A model generated the notes under the pieces. That model searched no databases. It was not told where the DNA came from and saw only the letters and a list, made by a program, of their open reading frames with translations. The position numbers were made by a program, and so were the translations under genes. Of a stretch of 64,000 nt of DNA, positions 1,827-47,862 are shown piece by piece (position 1 is the stretch's first letter; each line of letters starts with the position of its first letter). Where the stretch lies: the NCBI RefSeq assembly GCF_014639655.1, contig NZ_BMGB01000001.1, forward strand, positions 1,566,882 through 1,630,881, written 5' to 3'. The stretch is from Conyzicola nivalis. GTDB taxonomy: Bacteria; Actinomycetota; Actinomycetes; Actinomycetales; Microbacteriaceae.

Positions 1827-2620
1827 GTGGCCCGTTGCCGGGAGAGGTGCGGCTGGCTGCTGAGGCGGCCGAGGTTGAGGGCGGCGAGGTGCACGGCGGG
1901 GCCGATGCGCCGCGGGTCGAAATTGCCGATGCGGCCGGAGACCGAGAGGGCGGCGACCGGGCGCGACTCGGTGGTGAGGATGGGGCTCGCCGCGGCGGTG
2001 ACGCCGGGTCCCGCCTCGGCGGTGGAATAGGCGAGCCCGGTGGCGCGGATGGTCTCGAGCTCGCGCAGCAGCGACGCGGAGTCGGTGATCGTGCCGGGCT
2101 GGTAGGCCACGAAGCCGTTCTCGATCACCCGCTCCACGACCTCGGGCGGCGAGAACGCGAGCAGGGCCTTGCCCGCGCCGGTCGCGTAGGCGGGCAGGCG
2201 TCCGCCGACGCGCGAGAGCAGGTACGAGGAGTCGTACCCGCGCAGGATGCCGATGTAGACGATCTCCGTGCCCTCGAGCACGGAGAGGTGCACGGTCTGC
2301 CGGGTGGAACTGCGCAGGTCGACCATGGTGGGGAGGGCGAGCGAGCGCAGTTCGTTGGGCTGGCCCGAGAGGGTGCCCAACTCGAACAGCCGCAGCCCGA
2401 TGCACACCAGCCCGCCGCGGCGCTCGAGGTAGCCGTGTTCGACGAGGCTCGACACGAGGCGCGAGGCCGTGGACTTCGGGAGGCCCGAGCGGCGGGCGAT
2501 CTCGTTGACCCCCATGCGGTCGTTCTGGGGCGTGAAGGCTCCGAGCACGGCGGTCATGCGTTCGATGATCGATACGGCGGCGTTCGGCTCGGCCACTGCT
2601 TCGTCACCACCCTTGGTCAC
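1820..2620 (-). CDS. IclR-family transcriptional regulator (candidate pca regulator)
   Basis: DNA-binding regulator with an N-terminal winged helix (about residues 15-75: VSIIERMTAVLGAF, GVNEIARRSGLPKSTASRLVSSL) and a C-terminal effector-binding IclR domain (about 80-255). It precedes pcaH on the same strand by 76 bases, so it is a candidate regulator of the pca operon, comparable in role to PcaR/PcaU-type IclR proteins. The GTG at 2620 directly abuts the palindrome TATCCAT-N3-ATGGATA with no Shine-Dalgarno, so a leaderless or slightly downstream start is possible. It is closely similar to the third IclR gene at 7220 through the HTH region, suggesting paralogues. The effector is unknown. Confidence 0.93.
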   Translation of the reverse strand: MTKGGDEAVAEPNAAVSIIERMTAVLGAFTPQNDRMGVNEIARRSGLPKSTASRLVSSLVEHGYLERRGGLVCIGLRLFELGTLSGQPNELRSLALPTMVDLRSSTRQTVHLSVLEGTEIVYIGILRGYDSSYLLSRVGGRLPAYATGAGKALLAFSPPEVVERVIENGFVAYQPGTITDSASLLRELETIRATGLAYSTAEAGPGVTAAASPILTTESRPVAALSVSGRIGNFDPRRIGPAVHLAALNLGRLSSQPHLSRQRATH

Positions 2621-2637
2621 TATCCATATTATGGATA
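2621..2637. promoter_or_regulatory. palindromic operator next to the IclR start
   Basis: TATCCATATTATGGATA has two perfect 7-bp arms around ATT. It touches the GTG of the minus-strand IclR gene and is 89 bases before the divergent IclR gene at 2727. It also contains an AT-rich -10-like core. Autoregulation by one of the flanking IclR proteins is the likely use; this is inference. Confidence 0.6.
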
Positions 2638-2726
2638 CATCATCTACGATATGAATACAGCATGGCCTTCCGCCGTGCCGCCGTCAATCGGGTAGCCCAC
2701 GGAGCCGCCCCGGAGAGGACTCGCCC

Positions 2727-3482
2727 GTGCCAGCAGAACGCACCGACATGGTCGGTAAAGCCCTCTCCCTGCTCGTGCTGCTCGGCGACACGGCACAGGG
2801 CGCGACGGCGACCGAACTCTCGGTGGCTGCCGCCCTGCCGTTCAGCACGACCCACCGCCTGCTGCGCTCGCTCTCGCAGCAGGGCTTCGTGGCCTTCGAC
2901 GCCGGCACCAAGCGGTACGCGCTCGGCATCCGGGTCTTCCAGCTCGGGCAGCGGGTGTCGAACGCGAACGGGTTGGCCGGTTCGTCCATCCCCGTGCTGC
3001 GTTCCCTCACCGAGCACACGCGCGAGGCCAGCATCCTCGGCGTGCTCGACACGAACCACGTTCTCACGGTGAGCAAGGTCGACGGGCCGCAGGCCTTCCG
3101 CGTCACGAGCGACCCCGGCACGCACAGCCCGCTGCACGCCACCGCGCTCGGCAAGGTGCTCGTGGCCTTCTCCGACGACTGGGAGGCCAGGGTCGCCGAA
3201 CTCGACCTGTTCGCCCGCACCGAGAAAACCATCACCGACCGCCGGGTGTTCCGCGGCGAGATCGAGCGCGTGCGCGAGCTCGGCTACGGCACCATGTACG
3301 AGGAGAACGAGGTCGGCATGAGCGCCCTCGCCGCCCCCGTGCGCTCGGCCGACGGACGGGTCATCGGCGCCGTCGCGATCGCGGCTCCGGTGTTCCGGTT
3401 GCCGTTCGACGAGCTTCTCGCGTTCCTGCCCCAGCTGCGGGCCGCCGCCGCCGAGCTCTCCGTGCGCGTTCCCGCGCCCTAG
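2727..3482 (+). CDS. IclR-family transcriptional regulator
   Basis: A 251-residue regulator with a winged-helix N-terminus (about residues 1-65: MVGKALSLLVLLGD, ATELSVAAALPFSTTHRLLRSL) and an IclR effector domain. It is divergent from the IclR gene at 1820. The GTG start at 2727 has a strong Shine-Dalgarno (GGAGAGGA, 2712-2719). It is less like the other two IclR proteins of the island, so it probably sees a different ligand or operator. Its stop overlaps the stop of the convergent Dabb gene at 3479. Confidence 0.92.
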   Translation: MPAERTDMVGKALSLLVLLGDTAQGATATELSVAAALPFSTTHRLLRSLSQQGFVAFDAGTKRYALGIRVFQLGQRVSNANGLAGSSIPVLRSLTEHTREASILGVLDTNHVLTVSKVDGPQAFRVTSDPGTHSPLHATALGKVLVAFSDDWEARVAELDLFARTEKTITDRRVFRGEIERVRELGYGTMYEENEVGMSALAAPVRSADGRVIGAVAIAAPVFRLPFDELLAFLPQLRAAAAELSVRVPAP

Positions 3483-3775: not shown

Positions 3776-5613
3776 GACAGGCCCGCCCGACGGGTGTGCT
3801 GTGCGGCGAGACGCACGGGCGCGTTCGTGGCTCCGTAGCCCGCGTAGCCCCGCCGCCTTTCGACGATCTCGAAGAAGACGCTGCCGAGCGACTCGGTATA
3901 GAAGTGCAGAAACTCGCCCCGCTCGTCGCGGTCGTACATGAGCTGCAGTTCGCGCAGCTGCTCGAGGAACGCCGGGTCGAGGTCGAAGCGCGAGTCGAGA
4001 TCGTCGTAGTAGTTGTCGCCGATCGGCAGGAAGGACAGGCCGCGCTGGCGTGCCCGCTTCGCCGCCGCCACAGCGTCGGTCGACGCGAAGGCCACGTGCT
4101 GGGCCTGCACCGGATTCGCTACGTTCTCGGCCGGTGCGAGATTCAACACCAGCCGGACCGCGCCGCCGGGTGCGCTCATCACCTGGCTGCGCACCAGCCC
4201 GGTCGGCGCGGCGACGTCGAGCGACGGCTGCGGGTCGAGCCCGAGCACGCTCGTGCAGAACAGCACGGCCGCGTCGAAGTACTCCCACGACTGCGCGAGG
4301 TTGACGTGGTCGACCCGGGTGACGAGGGAATCGGCGGCCGGAACCGGCGCGTTCTCGAACTCCGCGACCCAGGCCGGCACGCCCGCGGCGCCGATGCGTC
4401 CGAAGAACACCTCGGACGAGTCGGGCGCCCTGACGCCGAGAAGCGGTTCGTCGCCCGCCCCTTCCTCGCGCGGCACCGGCGGAGCGAGCAGTCGGGCGGC
4501 CCGCTCTGCGGCCGCGTGCGTGTCGGCGACGTCGAACCCGAGCGCGGCGACCGCCGGCGCACCCGCCGTGGCGTCGCCGTTGTTGATCACGACCCGCGCG
4601 CCGCCCTGCGCCCAGAGTTCGACCGGCTTGGTGCGGTGCGATCCGCCGTCGTCGAAGCCGAGTTGGTAGAGGGTCGTGCGCACACGGTCGCGTTGGCCGT
4701 CCTCGGCGCGGATCTCGACGAAGTTGAACCCGACGGGCGGGTCCATCTCCGGCAACGGCTCGACCCGCATGTGGGCGCCCTCGCTCCCGTCGCGGTCGAG
4801 CGCCTCCGACGCGAGTTCCTGCAGCCACTCGAGGGACCGCATCGCGTCGATAGCGGTGCGGAACGGGTCGGTTCGGCGGAACGTGTCGTTGAAGATCTCG
4901 AGCGAGACCGGTCCGTCGTACCCCGACCGCAGCAGGTGCCCCATGAAGTCGGCGAGGTCGAATGCGCCCTCGCCCGGAAACACCCGGTGGTGGCGGCTCC
5001 ACGACAGCAGGTCCATGGTGAGGCCCGGTGCATCCGCCATCTGGACGAAGAAGATCTTGTCGGCGGGGATCGTCTCGATCGCCACCGGGTCCCAGCCGCG
5101 GGAGAGGATGTGGAAACTGTCGAGGCAGTGACCGACGGCCGGGTGGTCGACCGAGCGCACGATGCGGGCCGCGTGCTCGTAGTCGGCCACGAAGCGTCCC
5201 CAGGCGAGCGCCTCGTAGGCGACGCGCACGCCGTTGTCGGCCGCGACATCGCCGAGGCGCCGCAACTGGTCGACCGCGAGCGCGTCGTCGGAGCTCACCG
5301 CCGTTCCGACGTTGCTGCAGAGCAGCATGGTGTCGATGCCGAGCCGGTTCATCAGGTCGAACTTGGCCCGCGCGCGGCGCAGATTGTGCCGCAGCTTCTC
5401 TTCGCTCACACCCTCGAAGTCGCGGAACGGCTGGTACAGGTCGAGGGTGATGCCCAGATCCACGGCGAGCGCCGCGACATCGCGCGGCGGCAGCGGTGAC
5501 GACACGAAGTCGGGCTCGAAGATCTCCACCCCGTCGAAGCCGGCCGCGGCGCTCGCCCTCAGCTTCTCGTCGAGCGTTCCGCTCAGGCACACCGTGGCAA
5601 TGGAAGTCTTCAT
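3772..5613 (-). CDS. quiC: 3-dehydroshikimate dehydratase fused to an HPPD-like domain
   Basis: Converts 3-dehydroshikimate to protocatechuate, joining quinate/shikimate breakdown to the pca pathway. The 613-residue protein has an N-terminal AP-endonuclease-2 like TIM barrel (1-280) whose metal ligands E134, D165, Q191 and E239 are all present at the positions I recall for Pseudomonas QuiC1. A C-terminal VOC/4-hydroxyphenylpyruvate-dioxygenase-like half follows (about 290-600) with candidate ligands in DHVNLA, QHVAFAS and FFEIVERR. This two-domain form is known in proteobacteria and some actinobacteria; the function of the C-terminal half is unsettled. The ATG at 5613 lies 81 bases from a GTTCCA-type palindrome. 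The gene is coupled to the downstream Dabb gene and divergent from aroQ. Confidence 0.93.
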   Translation of the reverse strand: MKTSIATVCLSGTLDEKLRASAAAGFDGVEIFEPDFVSSPLPPRDVAALAVDLGITLDLYQPFRDFEGVSEEKLRHNLRRARAKFDLMNRLGIDTMLLCSNVGTAVSSDDALAVDQLRRLGDVAADNGVRVAYEALAWGRFVADYEHAARIVRSVDHPAVGHCLDSFHILSRGWDPVAIETIPADKIFFVQMADAPGLTMDLLSWSRHHRVFPGEGAFDLADFMGHLLRSGYDGPVSLEIFNDTFRRTDPFRTAIDAMRSLEWLQELASEALDRDGSEGAHMRVEPLPEMDPPVGFNFVEIRAEDGQRDRVRTTLYQLGFDDGGSHRTKPVELWAQGGARVVINNGDATAGAPAVAALGFDVADTHAAAERAARLLAPPVPREEGAGDEPLLGVRAPDSSEVFFGRIGAAGVPAWVAEFENAPVPAADSLVTRVDHVNLAQSWEYFDAAVLFCTSVLGLDPQPSLDVAAPTGLVRSQVMSAPGGAVRLVLNLAPAENVANPVQAQHVAFASTDAVAAAKRARQRGLSFLPIGDNYYDDLDSRFDLDPAFLEQLRELQLMYDRDERGEFLHFYTESLGSVFFEIVERRRGYAGYGATNAPVRLAAQHTRRAGLS

Positions 5614-26278: not shown

Positions 26279-26293
26279 ACGCCCGAACCGACA

Positions 26294-26333
26294 ACGGCGG
26301 CCTCCCCTCCCTCGCGGGTGGGGAGGCCGCCGT
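26294..26333 (+). terminator. hairpin terminator after the MFS gene
   Basis: A 14-bp perfect stem (ACGGCGGCCTCCCC and its complement) with a 12-base loop, 15 bases past the stop. No clear T-run. Confidence 0.75.
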
Positions 26334-26367
26334 CGTTGGGGTGCGGCCGTCGGGCCGGGCGCTCCAG

Positions 26368-26616
26368 CTACTCGGGCGCTCGGGCGCGTTCGGCGTCGCG
26401 CCGACGCTGGATGCGACGCGCGACGAGCTGGCTCGCCACGATCTGCAGAACGACCACCGCCATCACGATGTAGCCCGCCACGATGACGTTGGCGGTCGAG
26501 CCCCACGCGAACGCGGCGACCGCCAGCCCGACCGCGATGCCCCACACCGCCCAGTAGGCGGACGCGAACACCCCGGTGTGCGTCGCCTCCCAGAGGGCAC
26601 TGCGCTGCTTGACCAC
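26368..26616 (-). CDS. small two-TM membrane protein
   Basis: An 82-residue hypothetical protein with two hydrophobic helices (ASAYWAVWGIAVGLAVAAFAW and VIVAGYIVMAVVVLQIVASQ) and a basic C-terminal tail (RRIQRRRDAERAR). The GTG at 26616 follows a good Shine-Dalgarno (AGGGAGAG), so it is preferred to in-frame starts further upstream. No function is recognised. Confidence 0.65.
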   Translation of the reverse strand: MVKQRSALWEATHTGVFASAYWAVWGIAVGLAVAAFAWGSTANVIVAGYIVMAVVVLQIVASQLVARRIQRRRDAERARAPE

Positions 26617-42927: not shown

Positions 42928-44148
42928 CTACCGGCGCGAGAGGAGCCGCAGCCGGATCGCCAGCACGACGGTCACGGTCACGATAACGAGGGCGAGCGAG
43001 GCGAGTCCCGAGTAGCCGAGCAGGGCGAGCACGGGCCCGGCGAGCGCGCCGCCCAAAGCTCCCGCGATGTTCATCGCCAGGTCGGACCGGCCCTGCAGGA
43101 TCGACCGCCGCTCGGCCGCGACCGACTCGGCGAGCAGGGCGGAACCGGCGACGGTCGACGCGCTCCAACCGAGCCCGAGCAGCACGAGTCCGACAGTGAC
43201 GCCGGTCTGGCTGTCGGCAGCCACGGCGACGGTGACGAGTGCCGCGACGAAGATGCCCTGGCCCAACAGGATCACCGGCACCCGCCCCGCGCGGTCGGCC
43301 AGCGCGCCGAAGACGGGCGAGAGCAGGTACATGCCCGCGATGTGCAGGCTGATGACGAGGCCGATGATGGTGATGGATGATCCGTGGCCGCTCAAATGCA
43401 CCGGGGTCATCGACATCACCGAGACCATCACCGCGTGGCTGAGCGCCACGGCCGTGATCGCGAACGCGGCGCGGCGCGGGCTGCCGACCGCGGGCGCCAC
43501 CGACGAGGGGGTGGCGGGCGCGGCATCCAGCTCCTGGCGCAGCAGCAGGGGGTCTGGGCGCAGTCCGACGACGTAGACGACCGCCGCGACGATCTGCGCG
43601 ACGACGGTGAAGACGAACGAGCCGGCGAGCGGCGGCAGACCGAGGGCCGCGCCGACCGACTCCCCCGGTCCCACGAGGTTGGGGCCGACGATGGCGCCGA
43701 GCGACGTCGCCCAGACCACGAGCGACAGGTCGCGCGCCCGGTGCTTCGAGCTCGCGAGGTCGGTGGCGGCGAACCGGGACTGCAGGGCGACGGCGGTTCC
43801 GCTGCCCAGCAGGGCGAGGGCGAGCAACAGCAACGGGAAGGAGTCGACGACCACGCTCGTGATCGTGACGACGGCGCCGAGTGCCGCTACCAGCGCGCCG
43901 ACCGTGAGTGCGACGCGGCGACCGCGGGCCCGGGCGAGTCGCGCGAGCGGGATGGCGGCCGCCGCGGCACCCAGCGTGGTCATGGTCGCCGCCATGCCGC
44001 TCCAGGCCGGCGAACCGGAGAGTTCGGCGGCGATGATCGCGCCGAGCGAGAGGCCGGCGCCGAGACCGAGTCCGCCGAGCACCTGCCCGACGGATAGCAA
44101 CGCTACCGAGCGACGCTGGGTCGCGCGGTAGTCGTCGAGCGAGGTCAT
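42928..44148 (-). CDS. MFS transporter (12 TM)
   Basis: A 406-residue major facilitator with about 12 hydrophobic segments. A degenerate motif A is visible in the loops (PLARLARARGRRVAL and GALADRAGRVPVI). It follows the FAH-family gene with a 4-base overlap and precedes gltX by 12 bases. Substrate unknown; the family includes drug and sugar exporters. Confidence 0.9.
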   Translation of the reverse strand: MTSLDDYRATQRRSVALLSVGQVLGGLGLGAGLSLGAIIAAELSGSPAWSGMAATMTTLGAAAAAIPLARLARARGRRVALTVGALVAALGAVVTITSVVVDSFPLLLLALALLGSGTAVALQSRFAATDLASSKHRARDLSLVVWATSLGAIVGPNLVGPGESVGAALGLPPLAGSFVFTVVAQIVAAVVYVVGLRPDPLLLRQELDAAPATPSSVAPAVGSPRRAAFAITAVALSHAVMVSVMSMTPVHLSGHGSSITIIGLVISLHIAGMYLLSPVFGALADRAGRVPVILLGQGIFVAALVTVAVAADSQTGVTVGLVLLGLGWSASTVAGSALLAESVAAERRSILQGRSDLAMNIAGALGGALAGPVLALLGYSGLASLALVIVTVTVVLAIRLRLLSRR

Positions 44149-44915
44149 GCGCGAGGGCGGGTGGTGTTTCCGAGGGTGCCGATGCCGCTGATGCCGACCT
44201 CGACGAACTGGCCGGGCGCGATGTCACCGGAGCCTGCCGGGGATCCGGTCATGATGATGTCGCCGGGCAGGAGGGTCCAGATGCCGGAGGCGAACGCGAC
44301 GAGTTCGGCGACGGTGTTCTTCATGTCGCCCGTCGAGCCGGAGAGGCGGTTCTCCCCCTCGACCCTGGTCGTGATCGTGGCGTTCGACGCGTCGAACTCG
44401 GTCTCGATGATCGGGCCGATCGGCGCGAACGTGTCGTAGCCCTTCGCCCGCGACTGCTGGCCGGCCTCGCCCATGAGGTCGATCGCCGTCACGTCATTGC
44501 CGACCGTGTAACCGAAGACGAAGTCGGTGGCGTCGTCGGCCGAGACGTTCTTGGCGATGCGGCCGATCACCACGACGAGCTCGCCCTCGTGCACGATCGT
44601 TCCGGCATCGGACGGCAGCAGGATCGGGTCGCCTGGGCCGACCACCGAGGTGTTCGGCTTGAGGAAGAGCAGCGGGGCGGCGTCGGTGTCCTCGTCGGGG
44701 TTCGCCGGGTAGTTACCCTCGACCGCGATCACCTTCGAGCGCGGGATGACCGGGGCGAGCAGCCGCACCGACGCGATCGGCACGCGCTCCTCGGTCGTGT
44801 CGAACCCGCTGAACATCGGGTCGCCCTCGAGCACGACGATCTCGTCGCCGTCGACGATGCCGAAACGGGGGTCCCCACCAGTGCTGAAGCGCGCGATTTT
44901 CACGCTGTCAACCAT
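44145..44915 (-). CDS. fumarylacetoacetate hydrolase (FAH) family protein
   Basis: A 256-residue FAH-fold enzyme (2-hydroxyhepta-2,4-diene-1,7-dioate isomerase/acylpyruvase-like). The metal-binding EGELVVVIGRI and the downstream VFGYTVGNDVTAIDLM, SRAKGYDTFAPIGP, MKNTVAELVAFAS and LLPGDIIMTGSPAGSG segments are conserved. In actinobacteria this gene commonly sits between the leuB/ilvE region and gltX, as here. The start MVDSVKIARF at 44915 is tentative; a GTG four codons later is possible. Confidence 0.92.
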   Translation of the reverse strand: MVDSVKIARFSTGGDPRFGIVDGDEIVVLEGDPMFSGFDTTEERVPIASVRLLAPVIPRSKVIAVEGNYPANPDEDTDAAPLLFLKPNTSVVGPGDPILLPSDAGTIVHEGELVVVIGRIAKNVSADDATDFVFGYTVGNDVTAIDLMGEAGQQSRAKGYDTFAPIGPIIETEFDASNATITTRVEGENRLSGSTGDMKNTVAELVAFASGIWTLLPGDIIMTGSPAGSGDIAPGQFVEVGISGIGTLGNTTRPRA

Positions 44916-44962
44916 AGCGAAGCTGCGCGGCCCGCCCACCGCACGGGGTTAGCGTGGGACGC

Positions 44963-45967
44963 ATGGAACATAGATATCTCGGAAACAGCGGCCTCAAGGT
45001 CTCGGAAATCACCTACGGAAACTGGCTGACCCACGGGTCGCAGGTCGAGAACGAGGTCGCGACCCGCTGCGTGCACGCCGCCCTCGACGCCGGCATCACC
45101 ACCTTCGACACCGCGGACACCTACGCGAACACCGCCGCGGAGCAGGTTCTCGGCGACGCGCTCAAGGGCCAGCGCCGCCAGTCGCTCGAGATCTTCACCA
45201 AGGTCTACTTCCCGACCGGGCCGAAGGGGCCGAACGACACCGGGCTCAGCCGCAAGCACATCCGCGAGTCGATCGACGCCTCGCTCGTGCGCCTCGGCAC
45301 CGAGTACGTCGACCTCTACCAGGCACACCGTTACGACTACGAGACCCCGCTCGAAGAGACCATGCAGGCGTTCGCGCAGGTCGTCCACCAGGGCAAGGCG
45401 CTCTACATCGGCGTTTCCGAGTGGTCGGCCGAGCAGCTGCGCGCCGGCCACCAGCTCGCCACCGAGCTCGGCATCCAGCTGATCTCGAACCAGCCGCAGT
45501 ACTCCGCGCTCTGGCGCGTGATCGAGGCCGAGGTCGTGCCCACGTCGGTCGAGCTCGGCATCAGCCAGATCGTCTGGTCGCCGGTCGCGCAGGGTGTGCT
45601 CACCGGCAAGTACAAGCCCGGAGCCGAGCTTCCCGAGGGAACGCGGGCGACGGATGCCGCGGGAGGAGCCGACATGATCGGATCGTGGCTGCGCGACGAG
45701 GTGCTCGAGGGCGTACAGAAGCTCGAGCCGATCGCCGCCGAGAACGGGCTCACGATGGCGCAGCTCGCCGTGGCCTGGGTGCTGCAGAACGACAACGTGG
45801 CGTCGGCGATCATCGGGGCGTCGCGTCCCGAGCAGGTGACTGACAACGTGAAGGCGTCCGGCGTGAAGCTCTCCACCGACACGCTCGCCGCGATCGACGC
45901 GGCCATCGGCGGCGTCGCCGAGAAGGACGCGTCCCTCACCGTCGGCCGCTCGCCGAAGACCCGCTAG
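44963..45967 (+). CDS. aldo/keto reductase (voltage-gated K+ channel beta-subunit-like)
   Basis: A 334-residue AKR: MEHRYLGNSGLKVSEITYGNWLTHG, catalytic Asp/Tyr in TFDTADTYANTAAE, Lys in EIFTKVYFP, His in LYQAHRYDYETPLEETMQA, and the cofactor site ASAIIGASRPEQVTDN. The layout matches the KCNAB/YghZ-like subgroup. It is divergent from the FAH gene with 47 bases between starts. Substrate unknown. Confidence 0.92.
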   Translation: MEHRYLGNSGLKVSEITYGNWLTHGSQVENEVATRCVHAALDAGITTFDTADTYANTAAEQVLGDALKGQRRQSLEIFTKVYFPTGPKGPNDTGLSRKHIRESIDASLVRLGTEYVDLYQAHRYDYETPLEETMQAFAQVVHQGKALYIGVSEWSAEQLRAGHQLATELGIQLISNQPQYSALWRVIEAEVVPTSVELGISQIVWSPVAQGVLTGKYKPGAELPEGTRATDAAGGADMIGSWLRDEVLEGVQKLEPIAAENGLTMAQLAVAWVLQNDNVASAIIGASRPEQVTDNVKASGVKLSTDTLAAIDAAIGGVAEKDASLTVGRSPKTR

Positions 45968-46051
45968 CCGCGGTCGCCGCCCGGTGCGCGGCGTATTTTC
46001 GCTGGCGCGCTCGAATGTTCGGGCGCGCCGATGAAAAAACGCAGCGCGAGC

Positions 46052-46137
46052 CGGCGGCGCTGCCGTTCGGCTCGAGTGCGGGCGTGCGAACAAGCGCACT
46101 CGAGCCAGACGGGCGCACCCGGTTTCGAGACCGCCGC
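46052..46137. repeat. long direct repeat, left copy
   Basis: About 86 bp that recur at 46660-46745 with roughly ten mismatches by eye. Each copy contains a hairpin with arms like GGCTCGAGTGCG and CGCACTCGAGCC. The pair brackets two small membrane genes. A tRNA D-arm-like stretch overlaps the inner edge. Confidence 0.85.
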
Positions 46138-46161
46138 GGGCGGCGCGCTAGACCGGCTGAG

Positions 46162-46383
46162 CTAACGGTAGGCGGCGATGGTGAAGCTGATTGCGATAGT
46201 CAGCAACCCAGCGGCCCAGAATGTCGCCGGGGGTGCCCAGAAAACAGGGTCCAGCCAGAACGGGCGACTCGTCGCCGCGCCCGACGACCTTCGCTCGCGG
46301 CGACGTTCTGTCCCCTTGCTGACCATCTGAATGGCCAGCTGGATGCAACCGAAAAGGAGGAGGGTCGCCCCGAAGCCACTCAT
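46162..46383 (-). CDS. small membrane protein B of a coupled pair
   Basis: A 73-residue hypothetical protein with two hydrophobic segments (GATLLLFGCIQLAIQMV and FWAAGLLTIAISFTIAAY) separated by a basic loop (SKGTERRRERR). The ATG at 46383 overlaps the stop of the upstream gene (ATGA), so it is translated with it. By eye it is less GC-rich than its surroundings. No family recognised. Confidence 0.6.
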   Translation of the reverse strand: MSGFGATLLLFGCIQLAIQMVSKGTERRRERRSSGAATSRPFWLDPVFWAPPATFWAAGLLTIAISFTIAAYR

Positions 46384-46631
46384 GAACCCGAGGCGAATCT
46401 GCCGAGTATGGCCATCACAATCCATAGAAATCCGAGAACCACCCACCCGGCCGCTATCACACGCACCAAGACGGGATGAAAAAATTGCCTGGCCGCTCTC
46501 GACTCCCCGTAGATGCGCCTATTGAGGGTCGACATAACCCTGACGAATGGTCCGGCATGAATGAAAATGGCGATCCCGGCGATGAAGACGACTCCGCCGA
46601 CGATCAGGCCGATCGCGTTGTCGAACGTCAT
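46380..46631 (-). CDS. small membrane protein A of a coupled pair
   Basis: An 83-residue hypothetical protein with two TM helices (AIGLIVGGVVFIAGIAIFIHAG and VRVIAAGWVVLGFLWIVMAI) around a basic loop (TLNRRIYGESRAARQFFHP). An AAAGGCGA Shine-Dalgarno precedes the ATG at 46631. With protein B it forms a two-gene unit lying between ~86-bp direct repeats. Function unknown. Confidence 0.65.
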   Translation of the reverse strand: MTFDNAIGLIVGGVVFIAGIAIFIHAGPFVRVMSTLNRRIYGESRAARQFFHPVLVRVIAAGWVVLGFLWIVMAILGRFASGS

Positions 46632-46659
46632 CTATTCGTCGCCTTTCTTAGGGTGTGAA

Positions 46660-46745
46660 CGGCGGCGCTGCCGTCTGGCTCGAGTGCGGACGTGCGAGCG
46701 GGCGCACCCGAGCCAGACGGGCGCACCCGGCCTCGAGACGGCCGG
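46660..46745. repeat. long direct repeat, right copy
   Basis: Partner of 46052-46137, 608 bases to the right. Its hairpin lies next to the ilvE stop codon and may end transcripts there. Confidence 0.85.
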
Positions 46746-46749
46746 CGCC

Positions 46750-47862
46750 CTACGCGTCGAGGCGCATCATCCAGCCGTGCACGTCGTCGCGACGCCCGTA
46801 CTGGATGTCGGTCAGTTCCTCGCGCAGTGACAGCGTGAGTTCGCCAGCGGGCGCATCCGCACTGCCGATCTCGAAGTCTGCGCTCTTGACGAGCGCGATC
46901 GGCGTGACCACCGCGGCGGTCCCGCAGGCGAAGGCCTCGACGATGTCGCCGGATGCCGCGCCCTCACGCCACTCCTCGAGGCTGACGCGTCGGCGCTCCA
47001 CCGTGTGGCCGCGGTCTTCGGCGAGCTGCAGGATCGAGTCGCGCGTGATGCCCTCGAGGATCGAGTCGGACTCGGGCGTGACGAGGGTGCCGTCCTTGTA
47101 GACCAGCACGACGTTCATGCCGCCGAGCTCTTCGAGGTAGGTGCCCTCTTCACTGTCGAGGAACAGCACCTGGTCGCAGCCGTTGTCGTAGGCCTCCGCC
47201 TGGGCGACGAGCGAGGAGGCGTAGTTGCCGCCGGTCTTGGCCGCACCCGTTCCGCCCTTGCCGGCGCGCGAGTAGTTCGTCGACAGCCAGACCTTGATCG
47301 GCACCACTCCGCCCGACGCGAAATAGGGTCCGGCCGGGCTGGCGATCACGTAGTAGTTGACCTTCTCGGCCGGGCGCACACCGAGGAACGCCTCCTTGGC
47401 GAACATGAACGGACGCAGGTAGAGGCTCGTGTCGGGTTCCGACGGCACCCAGGCGTGGTCGGCCTTGATGATCTCCTTGAGCGAGTCGATGAAGTACTCG
47501 GTGGGGAGTTCGGGCATCGCCATGCGGCGCGCGGAACGCTGCATCCGCTCGGCGTTCTTTTCCGGACGGAAGGTCCAGATCGAGCCGTCCGCGTGACGGT
47601 AGGCCTTCATGCCCTCGAAGACCTCCTGGCCGTAGTGCAGCACGGCCGCGGCCGGGTCGAGGGCGATCGGGCCGTACGGCTGCACGCGCGGGCGGTGCCA
47701 GCTGCCACGCGCCGACCAGCAGATGTCGACCATGTGGTCGGTGAAGTGCTTGCCGAACCCCGGGTCGGCGAGGATCTCCATGCGCTCCATCTCCGACTTG
47801 GCCTCGGGGTTGGTGGAGCGCAGGAACTGCAGGGTGGTTGGCGCGAGGAGGTTCTTGATCAT
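46750..47862 (-). CDS. ilvE: branched-chain amino acid aminotransferase
   Basis: PLP-dependent last step of leucine, isoleucine and valine synthesis. The 370-residue class IV aminotransferase has the PLP lysine Lys209 (GAAKTGGNYASS), GQEVFEGMKAYRHADGSIWTFRP, DQVLFLDSEEGTYLEELGGMNV and the C-terminal ACGTAAVVTPI. It lies 27 bases downstream of leuB on the same strand. Confidence 0.97.
   Translation of the reverse strand: MIKNLLAPTTLQFLRSTNPEAKSEMERMEILADPGFGKHFTDHMVDICWSARGSWHRPRVQPYGPIALDPAAAVLHYGQEVFEGMKAYRHADGSIWTFRPEKNAERMQRSARRMAMPELPTEYFIDSLKEIIKADHAWVPSEPDTSLYLRPFMFAKEAFLGVRPAEKVNYYVIASPAGPYFASGGVVPIKVWLSTNYSRAGKGGTGAAKTGGNYASSLVAQAEAYDNGCDQVLFLDSEEGTYLEELGGMNVVLVYKDGTLVTPESDSILEGITRDSILQLAEDRGHTVERRRVSLEEWREGAASGDIVEAFACGTAAVVTPIALVKSADFEIGSADAPAGELTLSLREELTDIQYGRRDDVHGWMMRLDA

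Follow-up and report, generated by a model that had tools for sequence, protein, structure and literature searches.

A pair of small, putative membrane-protein genes between similar hairpin repeats in a variable slot of the Conyzicola nivalis chromosome

Gene pair and direct repeats between AKR and ilvE

The window analysed is a 64,000-nucleotide stretch of the Conyzicola nivalis genome (G000; 3.34 Mb in three contigs), and coordinates given without a label refer to it. An ORF on the plus strand (44954-45967), which we take by recognition to be an aldo/keto reductase gene (AKR), is convergent to a unit of two minus-strand ORFs, orfB (46162-46383; 73 aa) and orfA (46380-46631; 83 aa). On the right the unit is flanked by a third minus-strand ORF (46750-47862), presumably the branched-chain aminotransferase gene ilvE, also named by recognition, which ends at 46750. 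orfA and orfB both start with ATG and overlap by ATGA. Kyte-Doolittle profiles with a 19-residue window reach maxima of 2.78 and 2.59 in orfA, giving two clear predicted TM segments, and 1.75 and 1.74 in orfB, giving two weaker ones. Structures predicted by AlphaFold without an alignment contain helices only (pLDDT 83 for orfA and 68 for orfB). Neither protein scored above the cut-offs of Pfam and other protein-family libraries; the best library matches of orfA are weak (Spore_YtrH 0.043, PD-T4-6 0.017) and orfB has none. Nothing convincing was obtained for either from PADLOC or PHROGs, a fold search with orfA gave no match at E≤0.001, and orfB has no significant sequence match to orfA. No promoter was recognized near the pair.

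The unit is bracketed by a direct repeat pair of 85 nt (46052-46136 and 46660-46744, spaced by 608 bp). The two copies are 88% identical with 10 differences, and identity falls immediately beyond both edges; among about 200,000 random 85-bp pairs drawn from the window none was above 54.1%. Each copy contains an inverted repeat with 25-nt arms, and the 73-nt hairpins of the two copies have folding energies of -49.4 and -53.3 kcal/mol. When extra flank was included, copy 2 folded better than all of 200 shuffles on either strand, and copy 1 was equalled by 10 and 7 of 200 shuffles. At the left edge of the repeat two palindromes meet, P1 (45979-46052) and P2 (46053-46126). P1 is 74 bp long, starts 12 bp past the AKR stop and scores 79.2 bits with the covariance model R1, of which it is one of the seven founding copies. 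Copy 1, a P2 hairpin with a short tail that abuts P1, scores 87.1 bits with the model R2. Copy 2, which consists of P2 and the same short tail without P1, scores 85.2 bits; both window copies were used in building R2. Between copy 2 and the start of orfA, which is downstream of it, are 28 bp, and the ilvE stop is 5 bp away on the other side. No RNA family of Rfam exceeded its gathering score over 45900-46900.

The DNA between the copies measures 523 bp with a GC content of 0.602, and third-position GC is 0.70 in orfA and 0.77 in orfB, compared with 0.84-0.93 in five neighbouring genes. The sequence-only reading of this locus, in which ~86-bp copies with about ten differences enclose a ~520-bp unit of two overlapping genes less GC-rich than its flanks, is borne out by these measurements. 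Its description of both products as two-TM proteins holds clearly for orfA, but in orfB the two segments are weaker.

Two candidate explanations were rejected. An insertion sequence with target duplication does not fit, as the 523-bp unit holds only orfA and orfB and no transposase, and the repeats are too long; 85 bp is far beyond the length of insertion-sequence target duplications. A stretch at the orfB stop (46152-46166), which resembles a tRNA D-arm, was considered as a tRNA remnant. ARAGORN calls no tRNA there, and the matching pattern had been derived from the window itself, which made it uninformative.

The slot between AKR and ilvE in congeners

None of the five congeners examined matched orfA, two of them being only 63% and 82% complete. 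ilvE was found in four of the five at E≤1e-80, the genome without a match being the 63% complete one (G002). In all four genomes with ilvE the unit is missing behind it, and three different arrangements are seen there. In the closest congener, G001, whose ilvE is 93% identical, about 2 kb separate AKR from ilvE and encode two proteins named by eye, a response regulator and its neighbour, a sensor kinase; no P1 or P2 match was found in this slot. In G005 (ilvE 87% identical) the interval extends over 11.3 kb of transport and catabolic genes, again named by eye, and P1 occurs there about 335 bp past the AKR stop. In G003 and G004 a gene of the fumarylacetoacetase family adjoins ilvE, and no AKR was detected at E≤1e-100. 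At that threshold AKR was matched in 35 of 60 genomes, our own included. Of 110 AKR loci, 30 were fetched with flanks of 1.5 kb and 80 with flanks of at most 4 kb, some of them ended by contig ends. Our own genome alone had ilvE within the flank, and the fumarylacetoacetase-family gene was there in three genomes, our own, G001 and G005.

The copy of the latter gene beside AKR in the window (44145-44939) reads EGNYPANPDED where G003 and G004 have GLNY followed by a histidine, and the G001 copy is similar to that of the window. The GLNY and histidine stretch is a conserved active-site stretch, and the window gene may be a non-catalytic paralogue.

When the DNA of the whole unit was searched against 398 genomes of the bacterial family, 75 gave a match; among the matches listed there was no copy of the unit, and those outside our own genome were 25-90 bp pieces that were coding or GC-rich. 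The slot between the convergent AKR and ilvE genes is variable. The orfA/orfB pair is accessory, because orfA is unmatched in the congeners, the arrangements behind ilvE differ, GC is lower and the flanking hairpins are sisters. Conservation in place of both genes and both repeats, which the sequence-only reading had set against an insertion, was not seen. The empty site with a single repeat copy that it had proposed to look for did not turn up either: no congener slot had AKR and ilvE separated by one P2 copy without genes.

A dispersed family of palindromes

The models R1 and R2 were built from seven and six hand-picked copies of P1 and P2, respectively. At E≤0.01, R1 matched at least 11 and R2 at least 9 of 60 genomes, including our own; R1 and R2 cross-match each other, and the weaker matches outside the genus may be generic hairpins. 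In our own genome at least seven P1 places and at least ten P2 places were found, and four of these are joined composites, giving 13 elements. Elsewhere in the genus, with both strands counted, P1 gave at least 55 matches in G001, 18 in G005, 12 in G002 and 1 in G004. P2 gave at least 30 in G001 and none among the scored candidates in G002-G005. Among the papers listed in literature searches on such repeats, none describes the P1/P2 palindrome family, and we make no claim that it is unpublished.

Covariation was assessed against shuffled alignments. In 18 copies of P1, 17 of 29 pairs had changed on both sides, compared with 12.5 in shuffles, of which 4 in 500 did as well. The double-changed cells numbered 49, compared with 25.0 in shuffles, a count that none of the 500 reached. 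In 10 copies of P2 covariation was weak, its score being reached by 16 and its paired fraction by 163 of 500 shuffles, and pairing changes are therefore claimed for P1 only. Correction of one palindrome arm by the other could be an alternative source of the paired changes. The results point to P1 as a covarying palindrome family with copies that mark the ends of genes.

The two P2 copies of the window stand apart within this family. Compared over 74 bp, the two have 88% identity, and of the 44 remaining pairings of the ten P2 copies the closest has 77%. In the last 24 bp, which include the tail, the window copies share 21 positions, and the other eight share 8-14 with either of them. By this comparison the two are sister copies within a dispersed hairpin family. 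A joined P1-P2 element also occurs in the same order at two other loci (L286 and L290) and reversed at a third (L287), and copy 1, which is such a composite, was therefore inferred to be the older of the two.

Other hairpins were noted in passing. Behind ilvE in G001 (L219, near 4010-4075) lies a palindrome of the form TTGAGCCTGTCGA...TCGACAGGCTCAA, which is not P2, so that a hairpin of another kind occupies the same gene end. Two hairpins precede an mscL-like gene in G001 (L293, 1564-1833) and one does so in our own genome (L283, 1933-2006). Within the window, an inverted repeat with 24-nt arms (26288-26339) overlaps the start of a tRNA-Trp gene (26328-26410).

Placement of the hairpins at gene ends

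The stop codon of a coding-like frame lies within 40 bp of 10 of the 13 hairpin elements of our genome, when antisense frames at copy 2 and at the right copy of another P2 pair (L281, see below) are left out of the count. This placement is terminator-like. The three exceptions are the L287 element, which is 140 bp from a stop codon, and the right L281 copy and L290, which lie between divergent genes; not all elements are therefore terminators. A T-run terminator was found at neither P2 copy, so that the classical definition of an intrinsic terminator does not apply to them, and the sole T-run match nearby is a short stem at 45975-45993. A strong hairpin just past a stop codon, the position expected of U-lacking (I-shaped) terminators, was found at the same ten elements. 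Judged by sequence and position, these long palindromes, which belong to a lineage-specific family, probably act as U-less, two-way terminators.

In a rival explanation the two copies would be ordinary terminators drawn from one hairpin family, one serving ilvE and the other the convergent AKR and orfB genes. No duplication would then have accompanied the genes, and the likeness of the two copies would result from gene conversion or from a chance recent spread. The frequency of these elements at gene ends agrees with this, as do related hairpins at the matching gene ends of G001, namely those of the mscL-like gene (L293) and a LacI-type gene (L301), the genes being matched by eye. Against it, the window copies resemble each other much more closely than any other P2 pair does, and their likeness extends into a tail that is missing from the other eight copies. 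We consider this explanation unlikely.

A second P2 pair and the cassette question

The sequence-only reading had suggested an inserted cassette or a duplicated hairpin element with cargo, and had proposed a search for other repeat pairs with different cargo. The one further pair found around cargo in our own genome is at L281, where two P2 copies bracket an AbiEi-like gene (1973-3165; G000:C1:1827472-1828664; AbiEi_4 E 0.024, under the cut-off). Its flanking copies are only 66% identical. In G001 (L294) an orthologue with 48% identity over 314 aa occupies the same place beside a biotin carboxylase gene, and the hairpins around it are distinct in sequence, score weakly with the models (25-36 bits) and were not counted as P2. 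That the sister species has this gene in an unchanged position is evidence against a general P2 cassette mechanism. A fixed cassette system, given the unlike L281 copies and the gene conserved in place, was therefore rejected as the leading reading. Of the original suggestion the anatomy stands, that is, an accessory unit between sister hairpins, but the cassette system does not, no empty site having been found.

In a more general form, P2 hairpins would be recombination sites, comparable to integron attC sites or the hairpins of single-strand transposons, with a dedicated enzyme moving the cargo. The exact position of the gene pair between direct hairpin repeats and the existence of a second P2 pair agree with such a mobile system. 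The dissimilarity of that second pair, the conserved place of its gene, the six of ten P2 copies that have no nearby partner and the lack of a recombinase within the unit argue against it, and we regard it as improbable. More improbable still is a version in which P2 sites allow small immunity-type genes to be captured downstream of host genes and a new P2 copy stays behind after every insertion; if true, P2 capture would be a minimal cassette system that is carried by terminators and needs no integron.

Relatives of orfA and their neighbourhoods

A single-sequence search with orfA of the 398 family genomes gave matches in nine, including our own, at E≤0.01; most were marginal, and the best outside our genome was in G437 (E 3.4e-6). 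A four-row profile, made of orfA, its paralogue on contig 2 of our genome and two G437 proteins, matched at least 25 of the 398 genomes at E≤0.001, with our own and G437 included and with several weak matches sitting within much longer frames. Against a profile of 18 family members, from which orfA, its paralogue and G437 were excluded, orfA scored 39.1 bits (E 1.9e-10 among 6155 sequences), and 300 shuffles of orfA in two runs scored 6.2 bits at most; this test is not fully independent, because the members had been gathered with a profile containing orfA. By these comparisons orfA belongs to a patchy family of two-TM proteins. Close relatives of orfA were absent from the genome-contig and viral-contig sets searched, and none was found among the plasmids or phages searched. 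For orfB only marginal matches and no convincing relative were obtained; it gave no match to the 18-member profile at E≤50 and is not a member of the orfA family.

Neighbourhoods of 6.5-11 kb were fetched around orfA relatives in 16 genomes, mainly those with the stronger matches. Proteins of the Rhs type, which are polymorphic toxins, were found close to the relatives in five (G437, G359, G441, G350 and G141), of which G437 had contributed to the four-row profile and the other four had not. The Rhs core was above cut-off in G437, G359 and G441, G350 has RHS repeats (E 1.1e-172), and G141 reached 31.4 bits, slightly below the NCBIfam cut-off of 32.5; Pfam gave no match to the Rhs proteins of G437 and G141. 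At these loci the orfA relatives lie downstream of the Rhs gene, among other small and often membrane-type proteins. No Rhs gene was present in the fetched stretch of the other 11 genomes, nor within about 3 kb of the relatives in the 8 remaining matching genomes. The same applies to both orfA copies of our own genome in the stretch examined, which for the paralogue covered 10 kb. As a control, 80 AKR loci (675 kb) were searched with a home-made Rhs profile, built from four of the five Rhs cores and missing the G350 type, and none matched. The orfA/orfB pair is flanked by AKR and ilvE, so that no toxin gene directly precedes it; the same would be true of an orphan immunity gene.

Two of the neighbourhoods had other features. 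An integrase lies near the orfA relative of G227, and in G429 (L341, 1851-6290) two ATPase-like proteins and a Vsr-like endonuclease stand beside the relative, with the look, by eye, of a defence island.

The pair might also be a small toxin, a holin-like or a stress membrane module that has nothing to do with immunity and persisted by chance because the convergent slot tolerates it. Small two-TM proteins are generic, and the weak library matches of orfA and the lack of any for orfB agree with such a module. Against it stand the sequence relatives of orfA that were met repeatedly in Rhs-linked arrays, and we consider it rather unlikely. The results point to a patchy two-TM family which, within this bacterial family, is partly linked to Rhs arrays and otherwise occurs as orphan copies.

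Discussion

The reading that we favour, with a confidence that is evenly balanced, is that the two genes are an orphan membrane pair of an immunity-like kind, lodged in a variable slot between convergent genes, and that a terminator hairpin was duplicated around them. An immunity-like role is proposed because orfA is related to proteins in immunity-type arrays behind Rhs toxins. orfA and orfB would probably be co-translated through the ATGA overlap into two small membrane proteins. By analogy with ExiCD, discussed below, these would most likely form an orphan immunity or membrane-protection complex against the membrane-acting toxin of a rival. The pair was probably acquired horizontally. As to the order and mechanism of insertion, we infer that copy 2 is likely a duplicate of copy 1, which lies in the P1-P2 composite behind AKR, and that it most likely arose with the insertion or by recombination between the repeats. 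Termination at the hairpins would keep the pair insulated from its neighbours AKR and ilvE.

Several points weigh against this reading. Copy 2 lies just upstream of orfA, and a strong terminator there would isolate the pair from ilvE when no promoter of its own has been recognized. Rhs genes are lacking from most of the enlarged neighbourhoods (11 of 16) and orfB has no convincing relative. The slot of the closest congener carries neither P1 nor P2. Together, the orfA family and the P1 palindromes offer a way to test how orphan immunity genes become established in chromosomes; convergent slots bounded by repeated terminators would let such genes land safely and would supply short stretches of homology for exchange.

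ExiC and ExiD of Staphylococcus aureus are reported to be two membrane immunity proteins with six predicted TM helices each that counter a type VII toxin and also occur as orphans in antitoxin islands (PMC12744356). The present pair resembles them in being a membrane-protein pair (ExiC and ExiD are needed together) encoded without a toxin in a variable region. It differs in having about two TM segments per protein, and the two are likened by architecture and context, not by sequence.

The immunity genes esaG and tipC are described in another study as reshaped by recombination at homology blocks of 55-100 nt (PMC9484751). Short homologous blocks of a recombination-capable length, at or between immunity-type genes, are common to that description and to our locus. 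At our locus, however, a hairpin belonging to a family spread over the genome takes the role of the block, and recombinants were not seen. The same study reports little evidence of such recombination for the membrane-toxin immunity genes tsaI (PMC9484751), which also speaks against the favoured reading.

For Streptomyces clavuligerus, a transcript-end study describes highly structured (I-shaped) ends that lack U, some of them two-way (PMC8269248). Those 3' ends were mapped experimentally, in contrast to P1 and P2, which are known from their sequence and position; GC-rich stem-loops without a U tract in a GC-rich actinobacterium are the shared feature. Finally, stem-loop sequence families of bacterial genomes are characterized in a survey as dispersed, structured and mainly intergenic, with a terminator function suggested for some (PMC2267715). 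P1 and P2, likened to them by description, are likewise dispersed, structured and mainly intergenic.
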